In this document: positions 8,320 to 12,177 of the stretch, one piece after another
Numbering within the stretch: the first letter of the stretch is position 1
Layout of the letters: the number at the start of each line of letters is the position of its first letter
Source: Limnohabitans radicicola
GTDB taxonomy: Bacteria > Pseudomonadota > Gammaproteobacteria > Burkholderiales > Burkholderiaceae_C
NCBI RefSeq assembly: GCF_014837235.1
Contig: NZ_JACYFT010000001.1
Coordinates: forward strand, 1,129,688-1,193,687
DNA length: 64,000 bases
Direction: 5' to 3'
The notes under the pieces: generated by a model
What the model saw: only the letters and a program-made list of their open reading frames with translations
Databases searched by the model: none
Told to the model about the DNA's origin: nothing
Position numbers and translations under genes: made by a program

Positions 8320-8817
8320 TCAAGGCAAGCGACGCGCAATGGTGTAATCGAGCGACAAGCGCCCAGGCCCCATGAACACCAGCGGTAACAACATTGCAAT
8401 GTAGATCACCGGAAGTTTGAAATTGCCAAAACCCTCGTTGGTCAATGCATAGCCCCTGAGCAGTTCACTCCAGTTAGACCACGACTCAGGCCAGTGCACG
8501 CTGAGCATGGCCACGATGGTCAAGGCGATGAGAGAGGCCGAGAAAAACCGCGTGCCCAGGCCAATGACCAAGGCCACTGCGCCGACCACCTCGAACCCCA
8601 GCGCCAGCGCCCAATTGATGTCTGGCGGGATCAGCTTGAATGGCCAGGGAAACTGGTTCTGGATGTCGGCAAACCAATTGCTGCCGTGCAGCTTTTCAAA
8701 GCCGGCTTCGCCAAACTCCCAGGCCAAAAGCAGGCGCAAACTCAGCAGTCCGAGCCACAAACCGACATGGTCGAGGGTGTTAAGCCCCTGACGGGCGATG
8801 TGCTGCGCTTTGTTCAT
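8320..8817 (-). CDS. DoxX family membrane protein (last gene of the RiPP metallophore operon; HvfX/BufD-like position)
   Basis: RLLLAWEFGEAGFEKLHGSNWFADIQ...LALGFEVVGAVALVIGLGTRFFSASLI; 4-nt overlap with upstream DUF2063 gene. Confidence 0.88.
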   Translation of the reverse strand: MNKAQHIARQGLNTLDHVGLWLGLLSLRLLLAWEFGEAGFEKLHGSNWFADIQNQFPWPFKLIPPDINWALALGFEVVGAVALVIGLGTRFFSASLIALTIVAMLSVHWPESWSNWSELLRGYALTNEGFGNFKLPVIYIAMLLPLVFMGPGRLSLDYTIARRLP

Positions 8818-9548
8818 GGTTTTGTTCCCAAAATGACGCCCTGCCCACGCAGGCTGATCAACAGTTGCTGCCCAAAACTCACCAATGCTTGTGGATCAAG
8901 ATGCGCCATCTCGCGGGCCAGTTGCTCAAACACCTGCTGACCCGTGCGGCTTTCATTCAGCAGGGCCAGCACACGGGCTGTGACGGCATTGATTTCAGAA
9001 AATTGCACCTGCTGCTGTGCATCGCGAAACACCACCAGAAAAGTGGGCTCCGACTGACGCGGCCGCCAGGTCGGGCCGATGCGGTGCACGGGCCAGGGAC
9101 TGACCACGTCGATGCGCGCCGGGTTAAGCACCACAGCGCAGGCCATCAGGTCACCCTGCGCGTCGTGTACGGGTGCCGCGACATCCATCACATCCACTGC
9201 CAACTCCGCCCATTCGTACCGCGCCAAATCGGCCAGCCAGTGCGGCAAGGGCTGGGCAATGTGGGCTTCATCGAGGTAGCGCACAAACTCACGCGGGATC
9301 TCGCGAAACCAAGGTGTGTGCAAAGGCCAGTCACGGTAGAAGGTGCGGCACAGCCTGCGCCAGCGGCCGTCACCGAGCAACTGGCGGCACACCGGAAAAC
9401 AGCTGTCCACAAAACCGCAGATGTTGTTGAACAAGAGCTCGTTGTACACCGCCATGCGGCGCGCAGGCACGCCTGCGGGACGGCGCGTGTGGTGTGGGTC
9501 GCGCAGGTGCCGCGCCAAATCGTGTTGGAATTGTTGGAACGCTAGCAT
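8814..9548 (-). CDS. hvfC: DUF2063 / HvfC-BufC family RiPP maturation partner protein
   Basis: MLAFQQFQHDLARHLRDPHHTRRPAGVPARRMAVYNELLFNNICGFVDSCFPVCRQLLGDGRWRRL; overlaps the DUF692 gene. Confidence 0.9.
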   Translation of the reverse strand: MLAFQQFQHDLARHLRDPHHTRRPAGVPARRMAVYNELLFNNICGFVDSCFPVCRQLLGDGRWRRLCRTFYRDWPLHTPWFREIPREFVRYLDEAHIAQPLPHWLADLARYEWAELAVDVMDVAAPVHDAQGDLMACAVVLNPARIDVVSPWPVHRIGPTWRPRQSEPTFLVVFRDAQQQVQFSEINAVTARVLALLNESRTGQQVFEQLAREMAHLDPQALVSFGQQLLISLRGQGVILGTKP

Positions 9549-10414
9549 CAGGCCACCCGCCTGTTTACCAACCGATGCGCGTCATGCGCTTCTTGCTGCA
9601 ACCGCACCACCTGCGCCACCTCTTGCGTGAGGGTGTGCAAATCGGGCAGGTTGAAATCACGCTCCAGGCATGTGGGTACCGTACGACCAATGCGGGCATA
9701 CGCCTCACGCAGCAATTGCCAGACCGGCTCGATCACGTCACTGCCATGGGTGTCCACCACCAGGCCGTCGTCCTCAACCCAGTGCCCCGCCACATGCACA
9801 TAGCAGGTGCGCTCCAATGGCAACTGCCGCAAATAAGCGTGGGGGTCAAAACCGAAGTTGCAGCTGTTGACATGGATGTTGTTCACGTCCAGGTGCAGCA
9901 GACAATCCGCGCGCTCAACCACCGCGCGGATGAATTCGGGCTCACTCATGTCGGCGCCGGGGGGGGCGATATAGGTCGATGCGTTTTCCACACCGATGCG
10001 TATGCCCAAAATGTCTTGTGTACGGCCAATGCGCTCGGCCGTCCAGCGCACCGCCTCTTCGGTCATGGGGATGGGCAAGAGGTCATACAAGTGGCTGTCA
10101 TCCGCACACCAGGACAGGTGCTCGGTGAACAGCGTCATTCCGTGCGTGCGCATGAAGTCACGGGTGCGCCGCAGTAAGACTTCATCCAAAGCGCCTGGTC
10201 CGCCCAAGGAGAGCGAGAGTCCATGGCACACAAACGGGTAACGCTCGGTGAAGGCCCGCAGCACATGGGCCGAACGACCGCCCATGCCAGCCCAGTTTTC
10301 GGGAGCGACTTCAAAAAACTGGATCTCGGACGGGACCGCCTGCTGAAGTGCAGGGGTCAACTCGCGCCGAAAACCCAGACCCGCACAGGTGGGGAAAGCG
10401 TTGTTCAAGGTCAT
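9548..10414 (-). CDS. hvfB: DUF692 family multinuclear non-heme iron oxidase (MNIO; HvfB/BufB-type RiPP maturase)
   Basis: GLGFRRELTPALQQAVPSEIQFFEVAPENWAGMGG; VCHGLSLSLGGPGALD; FTEHLSWCADDSHLYDLLPIPMTEEAVRW; LLHLDVNNIHVNSCNFGFDP. Confidence 0.95.
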   Translation of the reverse strand: MTLNNAFPTCAGLGFRRELTPALQQAVPSEIQFFEVAPENWAGMGGRSAHVLRAFTERYPFVCHGLSLSLGGPGALDEVLLRRTRDFMRTHGMTLFTEHLSWCADDSHLYDLLPIPMTEEAVRWTAERIGRTQDILGIRIGVENASTYIAPPGADMSEPEFIRAVVERADCLLHLDVNNIHVNSCNFGFDPHAYLRQLPLERTCYVHVAGHWVEDDGLVVDTHGSDVIEPVWQLLREAYARIGRTVPTCLERDFNLPDLHTLTQEVAQVVRLQQEAHDAHRLVNRRVA

Positions 10415-10491: not shown

Positions 10492-10803
10492 TCAAGACTT
10501 TTTGGCGCCGCAAGTAGCGTCTTTCTTCTTATCGGCACCGCAGCTGGCTTCTTTGGCTTTCTTGTCAGCACCGCATTTGGCTTCACCGCACTTGCCGTCT
10601 TTTTTCTTGTCCATCTTTTTTTCAGCACCGCACTTGGCTTCGCCACACTTGCCATCTTTGGCCTTGGTGTCGGCCTGAGCGACTTGGTAGCCAGCGTCCA
10701 GCGCCTTGGCGGCAAATGGGTTGCCGGCAGCCTGAGCCGGCAATGCCGCGACAGCGGCGAATGCAGAGCCCAAAGCGATGGTCAACAGTTGTTGCTTGTT
10801 CAT
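10492..10803 (-). CDS. hvfA: Hvf/bufferin-type RiPP metallophore precursor, signal peptide plus six Cys-Gly motifs
   Basis: MNKQQLLTIALGSAFAAVAALPAQA signal; DGKCG, EAKCG, DGKCG, EAKCG, EASCG, DATCG; AGGAG ribosome-binding site before ATG 10803. Confidence 0.92.
   Translation of the reverse strand: MNKQQLLTIALGSAFAAVAALPAQAAGNPFAAKALDAGYQVAQADTKAKDGKCGEAKCGAEKKMDKKKDGKCGEAKCGADKKAKEASCGADKKKDATCGAKKS
10558..10659 (-). repeat. internal duplicated 15-residue module in the precursor
   Basis: KDGKCGEAKCGAEKK (10615-10659) and KDGKCGEAKCGADKK (10558-10602), 14/15 identical. Confidence 0.88.
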
Positions 10804-10888
10804 GAAAATCTCCTGAAAGGTTGGTGCTTGGATACGACCCGCTGAAACCACGCCTTGAAGGTGCTTGTTCATCAGGGTCATGGTGTAA

Positions 10889-10914
10889 TCCGCCGCAACC
10901 GATTTGAAAGTTAC
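10889..10914 (-). promoter_or_regulatory. ECF-type promoter candidate for the RiPP operon
   Basis: Minus strand GTAACT (10909-10914) - N16 - CGGA (10889-10892). Confidence 0.68.
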
Positions 10915-10947
10915 ACAAAGCCAAATTTTTTATGCATTTTGTTATCT

Positions 10948-10973
10948 GTAACTTTTCCAACCCCACACACGAA
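10948..10973 (+). promoter_or_regulatory. ECF-type promoter candidate for the sigma factor gene
   Basis: GTAACT (10948-10953) - N16 - CGAA (10970-10973); same hexamer and spacing as the opposite-strand site. Confidence 0.7.
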
Positions 10974-10981
10974 CTCTTTGC

Positions 10982-11542
10982 ATGAGCGAAAGCCTGCACA
11001 CTGTCGAATCCCAGCTGCACGCCTTGTGGATGCAATCACTGCAAGGCGACCGCGCCTGCTACGAGCGTGTGCTAACGCTGCTCAGTACTTATGTGCGCGG
11101 CTTTCTCAGAAAGCGCCTGCAGTCCCAGCTCAGCGACGTTGAGGACCTTGTGCAAGAAACCCTGATGGCCATCCATCAAAAGCGCCACACCTACCAAAGT
11201 GATCAGCCACTCACCGCCTGGGTGTTTGCGATTGCGCGCTACAAGTGGGTGGACCACTTGCGTGTCCATGGCCGTCGTGAAAAATTGCACGACGACATCG
11301 ACGACTGGGCCGACACCCTGACGGTGGACAGCGACACCGAAACGAGCGATGCTCAGCGCGATCTGGCCCAGGTGCTGGCCGACCTGCCGCCGAAACAACG
11401 TGCCGCCATCGAACACACGCGGCTACAAGGCCTGTCGATCACCGAAACCGCACAGCTGACCGGGCAAAGCGAAGCGTCCGTCAAAGTCAATGTCCACCGA
11501 GGCCTGAAAACCTTGATGGCCAAATGGGGAGTCCAAAAATGA
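10982..11542 (+). CDS. ECF-type sigma-70 family RNA polymerase sigma factor (SigF-like)
   Basis: VEDLVQETLMAIHQKRHTYQSDQPLTAWVFAIARYKWVDHLR (region 2) and LPPKQRAAIEHTRLQGLSITETAQLTGQSEASVKVNVHRGLKTL (region 4). Confidence 0.95.
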   Translation: MSESLHTVESQLHALWMQSLQGDRACYERVLTLLSTYVRGFLRKRLQSQLSDVEDLVQETLMAIHQKRHTYQSDQPLTAWVFAIARYKWVDHLRVHGRREKLHDDIDDWADTLTVDSDTETSDAQRDLAQVLADLPPKQRAAIEHTRLQGLSITETAQLTGQSEASVKVNVHRGLKTLMAKWGVQK

Positions 11543-12177
11543 AAACACAAGACCTGATCGGCCTGCTGGCTCAAGACCCGATGCCTGCGGCGCCTCCGGT
11601 GCGCCAGCAACTGAGCCAGGCTCTGCTCGGTTCGGCGCTGGTGAGCGGGACATGGCTGCTGGTGTTCTGGGGCTTGAACCCTGACATGGGCACGATGGCT
11701 ATCCACCCAGCTTTTGCCACCAAGATGCTGTGGCTGTTGGCGCTGGCCGTCTTCAGTGCCCGGGGCCTGCTGCACCTGTCGCGCCCGGGCATGGGTGTGG
11801 GGTCCACGTTCTGGGGGCTCGCGCTCGCCCTGCTGGCCATGGGCAGTCTGGGTCTGATGCAATCGCTGGAGGCCAACCCCGACAGCCGCATGGCCCTGTG
11901 GATGGGCAGCTCTTGGCAGACCTGCGCGCTGAGCATACTGGCACTGGCACTGCCGGTGCTCGGCGCACTGCTGTGGGCTCTGCGCCAACTGGCGCCCACC
12001 CGGCCAGCGCTGGCGGGTGCCGCAGCGGGTGCCATGGCCGGCTGTGTGGCAGCGGGCTTTTATTCACTGCACTGCACCGAGACGACCTTTGCCTTCTTCG
12101 CCGCGTGGTATGGCGGTGGCATGCTGATCGTGAGTGCGTTGGGCGCGCTGCTGGGCAGTCGTTTACTGCGCTGGTAA
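11539..12177 (+). CDS. NrsF-like (DUF1109) membrane anti-sigma factor
   Basis: About six hydrophobic segments; Cys in CALSI and GCVAAGFYSLHCTE; ATGA overlap with the sigma gene. Confidence 0.88.
   Translation: MKTQDLIGLLAQDPMPAAPPVRQQLSQALLGSALVSGTWLLVFWGLNPDMGTMAIHPAFATKMLWLLALAVFSARGLLHLSRPGMGVGSTFWGLALALLAMGSLGLMQSLEANPDSRMALWMGSSWQTCALSILALALPVLGALLWALRQLAPTRPALAGAAAGAMAGCVAAGFYSLHCTETTFAFFAAWYGGGMLIVSALGALLGSRLLRW

Follow-up and report, generated by a model that had tools for sequence, protein, structure and literature searches.

Two back-to-back promoters were found between a sigma factor gene and a RiPP operon in a 64,000-nucleotide stretch of Limnohabitans radicicola DNA (the window). 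We propose with high confidence that an ECF16 sigma factor activates its own gene and drives the HvfA-type RiPP operon through this pair of promoters, under the control of the anti-sigma factor NrsF. Homology argues strongly that the sigma factor very probably transcribes both promoters. A circuit of this type is already known, and what is new here is a slightly different, uncommon peptide cargo together with a derived -10 element. For a freshwater gene cluster of the oxazolin type with a predicted copper-binding peptide, this defines a control circuit precise enough to be tested.

The divergent promoter pair and its rarity

Both promoters were located by direct sequence reading within an 85-bp intergenic region (10889-10973). 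On the minus strand, the promoter facing the RiPP operon consists of a -35 element GTAACT (10909-10914), which most genus relatives keep as GTAAC, and a -10 element CGGA (10889-10892), separated by 16 nucleotides. On the plus strand, the promoter facing the sigma gene has the same -35 element GTAACT (10948-10953) and, after another 16-nucleotide spacer, the -10 element CGAA (10970-10973); both elements recur in the loci of relatives, and the -35 element was also recovered in a genus alignment. An earlier sequence-only reading had described two GTAACT-N16-CG[A/G]A promoters on opposite strands, the minus-strand one pointing at the RiPP operon and the plus-strand one at the sigma gene, and its positions proved exact and its orientations right. 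The likeness that it noted to the GTAACC-N16-CGAA promoters of Caulobacter SigF agrees with the motif as published (PMC3511200). That reading did not identify the RiPP as HvfA/oxazolin-type or point out that CGGA differs from the consensus of the family.

A pattern scan for GTAACY-N16-CGRA returned these two sites as the only matches in the window, and dinucleotide shuffles of the window gave a mean of 0.12 matches (sd 0.33), with two matches in none of 100. The 3.34-Mb genome holds seven matches versus 55 for a reversed control pattern, indicating that the motif is under-represented. A tighter pattern, GTAACTTT-N14-CGRA, matched the genome twice, both times at this pair. Since the remaining five strict matches lie within long ORFs in antisense orientation, and one match to a relaxed motif, on contig C11, looks ribosomal by eye, neither scan supports a second target of the sigma factor in the genome. 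The genome scan suggested earlier for defining the full regulon recovered the pair itself as two of its seven matches, and a wider regulon was not supported.

Genes on either side of the pair

The sigma factor gene (10982-11542, plus strand) encodes 186 amino acids with region 2 and region 4 only (Sigma70_r2, Sigma70_r4_2), which is the ECF architecture. A sigma tree was built that included Cupriavidus metallidurans RpoQ (51% identical) and Buf1-linked loci and left out Caulobacter SigF itself; in it, the sigma factor of the window falls into a 19-locus clade with a support of 100/100. The start of the following nrsF-type anti-sigma gene (11539-12177, plus strand) overlaps the sigma stop codon. 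Its product matched PF06532 (DUF1109) with E=9.5e-54 and 182.8 bits (cut-off 26.8), and the strict NCBIfam NrsF equivalog with E=1.6e-37, under the cut-off of that model. A simple hydropathy scan gave six hydrophobic segments, and the alignment columns of Cys129 and Cys179 each contain cysteine in 77 of 78 homologues. An NrsF-family neighbour with both conserved cysteines indicates that the sigma factor is of the ECF16 or Caulobacter SigF-NrsF kind, and a further ECF16 trait is that its gene is preceded by a GTAAC...CGAA promoter. Among 35 genus relatives the sigma gene was present in eight, six of which also carry the MNIO gene, and in none of the 35 was an MNIO gene found without the sigma gene.

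The target operon is encoded on the minus strand. It comprises a RiPP precursor of the HvfA/oxazolin type with a signal-peptide-like N terminus and KCGExKCG repeats (10492-10803), an MNIO enzyme of the HvfB maturase family (9548-10414; PF05114, E=1e-96 on the longer ORF from 10453), and, from domain and NCBIfam profile searches, a DUF2063 partner protein of the HvfC family (8814-9548) and a DoxX-family membrane protein of the HvfX family (8320-8817). The precursor scored 46.4 bits against NF050137 (cut-off 19.5) and did not reach the threshold of the strict HvfA equivalog (NF050188); the MNIO enzyme scored 380.7 bits against NF003818 (cut-off 360) and fell under the threshold of the BufB model. 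The profiles NF050145 and NF050144 of the HvfA/EGKCG oxazolin cluster likewise exceeded their cut-offs. The precursor had no Pfam match, and in place of the DUF2282 domain of a bufferin 1 cluster it carries the KCGExKCG repeats. These profile matches assign the target operon to the RiPP clusters of the HvfA/EGKCG "oxazolin" type and set it apart from the DUF2282 bufferin cluster usual for SigF-NrsF.

By precursor pattern, the 88 sigma loci include 16 with KCGExKCG precursors, of which 14 belong to the 19-locus clade of the window, and 29 with DUF2282-type bufferin precursors; others encode a Met-rich peptide, a molybdopterin oxidoreductase or both. In the available part of a 2025 MNIO survey, sigma and NrsF genes are placed in Buf1 but not in Buf2 clusters, and that part of its text names no such genes for EGKCG clusters (PMC12452194). 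Relative to this portion of the literature, which describes ECF16/NrsF linkage for DUF2282 bufferins, the present locus extends the linkage to RiPPs of the EGKCG type. The product of the Haemophilus MNIO enzyme was first assigned as an oxazolone/thioamide and was later re-examined as a thiooxazole (PMC13097082).

Conservation of the pair and alternative readings

Conservation was assessed in 80 sigma loci from named genomes, 73 of them with non-redundant upstream regions, the nearest being from Limnohabitans and other Comamonadaceae. GTAAC-N(1+16)-CGRA was present toward the sigma gene in 66 of the 73, away from it in 44 and in both directions in 41. Other spacers from N11 to N21 were found in zero to six loci, the maximum of six belonging to N12 toward the sigma gene, while the same test applied inside the gene gave 0 and shuffles gave about 0.3. 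In an alignment of seven species of the genus, GTAAC and CGAA/CGGA are kept on both strands amid a diverged spacer. The conservation of the N16 divergent pair in relatives shows that it is no coincidence of a single sequence.

The -35 element is mostly GTAACT in the Limnohabitans-like set and mostly has C as its sixth base outside the genus; one genus relative has GAAAC in the RiPP-facing promoter. Every one of the 15 genus loci that have the motif carries CGAA as the sigma-facing -10 element, and in the target-facing promoter of the Limnohabitans-like set this element is CGGA in 9 of 14 and CGAA in 5 of 14. Because motif-bearing relatives outside the genus always have CGAA, as do all sigma-facing sites within it, CGGA is most simply explained as a genus-specific derived -10 element confined to the target promoter. 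This departure from the CGAA consensus on the RiPP side, which reaches AGGA in one relative, is a counterpoint to the proposed circuit. One Limnohabitans locus (L027) has the sigma factor and NrsF without the RiPP operon; its divergent site faces an apparent ABC transporter operon, and the strict motif toward the sigma gene is absent.

The probability that the pair merely arose by chance within AT-rich intergenic DNA is negligible. By eye the region does look rich in AT, and the motif was picked after the sequence had been read, but the window shuffles, the rarity in the genome, the specificity for N16 in the 73 loci and the footprint in the genus are all contrary to it, and conservation across many genera refutes it, bearing out the earlier judgement that such a pair is unlikely by chance. 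It is also very improbable that the inverted GTAACT/AGTTAC hexamers form the operator of a dimeric regulator between ordinary promoters. Their inversion at a distance of about 33-35 bp within the genus would fit a palindrome, but across relatives the two sites lie from about 35 to more than 100 bp apart, each hexamer keeps a fixed N16 distance to a CGRA of its own, and some loci retain just one site. The operator palindrome was rejected on this variable distance, which points to two separate promoters.

A further reading is that the RiPP promoter alone depends on this sigma factor, and that a housekeeping or other sigma factor accounts for most transcription of the sigma gene, leaving little feedback. 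Precedents exist: the Caulobacter sigF promoter is still active in a sigF mutant and sigF is not exclusively SigF-dependent (PMC3511200), C. metallidurans rpoQ was reported to be RpoD-dependent (PMC10304878), and autoregulation of Haemophilus influenzae RpoE2 is very limited (PMC7907618). We nevertheless consider it unlikely. The sigma-facing motif is better conserved than the target-facing one (66 versus 44 of 73 loci) and always has CGAA, no sigma-70-like housekeeping promoter was matched within 10780-11000, copper raises sigF in Caulobacter (PMC8224329), and Brucella BcrS is autoregulated (PMC8315932).

The transcript starts were considered on both sides of the pair. Directly downstream of the CGGA element, the predicted transcription start region TTACACCATG (10879-10888, minus strand) is near-invariant in the seven aligned genus members. 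The genus alignment gives a near-invariant TTACACCATGAC after the target promoter, and CACCATGAC directly past the -10 element is kept in most genus members. This conservation, and a run MTA(M/I/L).KC that recurs in several members, would agree with a regulatory leader peptide beginning at the conserved ATG of the predicted RiPP transcript. Against this, a comparison among genus relatives showed that the reading frame of the ATG in TTACACCATGAC is not conserved: its length ranges from six codons to an in-frame fusion with the precursor gene, and frameshifts separate close relatives. A leader peptide is therefore highly unlikely, and it was rejected because neither frames nor stops are conserved; TTACACCATGAC more probably belongs to the -10/start region of the target promoter. 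On the sigma side, 8 nucleotides (10974-10981) separate the CGAA element from the start codon. Transcription from ECF promoters usually starts 6-8 nucleotides downstream of the -10 element; should this hold here, the sigma-dependent sigma mRNA is predicted to be almost leaderless. Several relatives have TTG as the apparent sigma start codon.

The proposed circuit and related systems

In the favoured circuit of autoactivation and operon control, the membrane protein NrsF would hold the sigma factor at rest. Copper or oxidant/thiol stress, the probable periplasmic signal, would act via the two NrsF cysteines and free the sigma factor. The holoenzyme would then produce more sigma and anti-sigma factor from GTAACT-N16-CGAA, and from GTAACT-N16-CGGA it would express the RiPP operon (precursor, MNIO, DUF2063, DoxX), whose Cys-modified peptide product would act as a periplasmic chelator of Cu(I). 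The analysis itself shows the sequence, its rarity in the genome, its conservation, the specificity of the spacing and the gene content; for the specificity of the sigma factor, the mechanism of NrsF, the nature of the inducing signal and the function of the peptide, the circuit relies on homologues.

Caulobacter crescentus SigF-NrsF likewise combines an ECF16 sigma factor and NrsF in one operon with an adjoining MNIO RiPP operon, and has the N16 spacing, the promoters of the two transcription units closely resembling each other (PMC3511200). Its target promoters were established by 5'RACE and lacZ fusions and that of sigF by primer extension, and the regulon is expressed more strongly when the two conserved cysteines of NrsF are replaced (PMC3511200). 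Copper induces the SigF regulon including sigF, and copper sensitivity is seen in a sigF mutant (PMC8224329). The Caulobacter consensus is GTAACC/CGAA, whereas here the sites have GTAACT, with CGGA on the RiPP side. In addition, the precursor of the Caulobacter operon CC3254-CC3257 (DUF2282/DUF692/DUF2063/DoxX) is a DUF2282 bufferin (Buf1) and not a KCGExKCG peptide. The SigF regulon of Caulobacter also includes a second DUF2282/DUF692 operon and msrPQ, targets for which no counterpart was found here.

Two divergent promoters between sigma gene and target operon are also seen in Brucella BcrS-AbcS/bcrXQP, where the GTAACC...CGAA pair was mapped by 5'RACE (PMC8315932). Unlike the present operon, bcrXQP starts with a Met-rich peptide gene in place of an MNIO RiPP cluster, and its inducer is HOCl. 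On overexpression, Sinorhizobium meliloti RpoE7 appears to activate its own promoter and a divergent operon (PMC6180224). The divergent arrangement is shared by C. metallidurans RpoQ-RsqA/gigPABT, whose MNIO operon is Buf1. In strain CH34 (L141 3762-3847, NC_007974.2), the rpoQ-gig spacer was found to have GTAACC-N16-CGAA on each strand, with GTAACCGGATGGCGCCCGCCGACGAA toward rpoQ and GTAACCGGTGACGGATCCCCCGCGAA toward gig. In the published work no gig promoter was found, control by RpoQ was only assumed, without direct evidence, and rpoQ deletion raises gig expression (PMC10304878); the full divergent pair makes the missing gig promoter directly testable. ECF sigma factors also control a DoxX/DUF2063/MNIO (Hvf-type) operon, along with msrAB, in Neisseria meningitidis (SigE-MseR, PMC3240639) and H. 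influenzae (RpoE2-HrsE, PMC7907618). Those sigma factors belong to ECF group 13 and have a small ZAS-related anti-sigma peptide, whereas here an ECF16 sigma factor is paired with a six-helix NrsF.

A broader reading is offered tentatively: the divergent SigF promoter cassette and sigF-nrsF may form a portable control module that evolution has recoupled to various operons for the control of periplasmic damage (bufferin, oxazolin, thioredoxin-CcdA, Mo-oxidoreductase/Met-rich peptide), and the drift of the Limnohabitans target -10 element to CGGA, with CGAA kept on the sigma side, might set a lower or later output than that of the feedback loop.

Secreted-type msrB genes were observed in four genomes without NrsF and the sigma factor of the window (G007, G022, G027 and G028), G022 having TTAAC. 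In several genus relatives (loci L143, L144 and L147), a secreted-type msrB has GTAACTTT(T)...ACGAA about 45 nucleotides upstream of its start, and at two others (L146 and L148) msrB has the same kind of site with a spacer one base shorter. Thioredoxin-like and CcdA-like genes follow the RiPP operon without a site of their own in one genome (G011), replace the RiPP operon opposite the divergent promoter at one locus (L032, 2934-3554), and have their own GTAACTTT...CGAA site at another (L132, 1501-2748).
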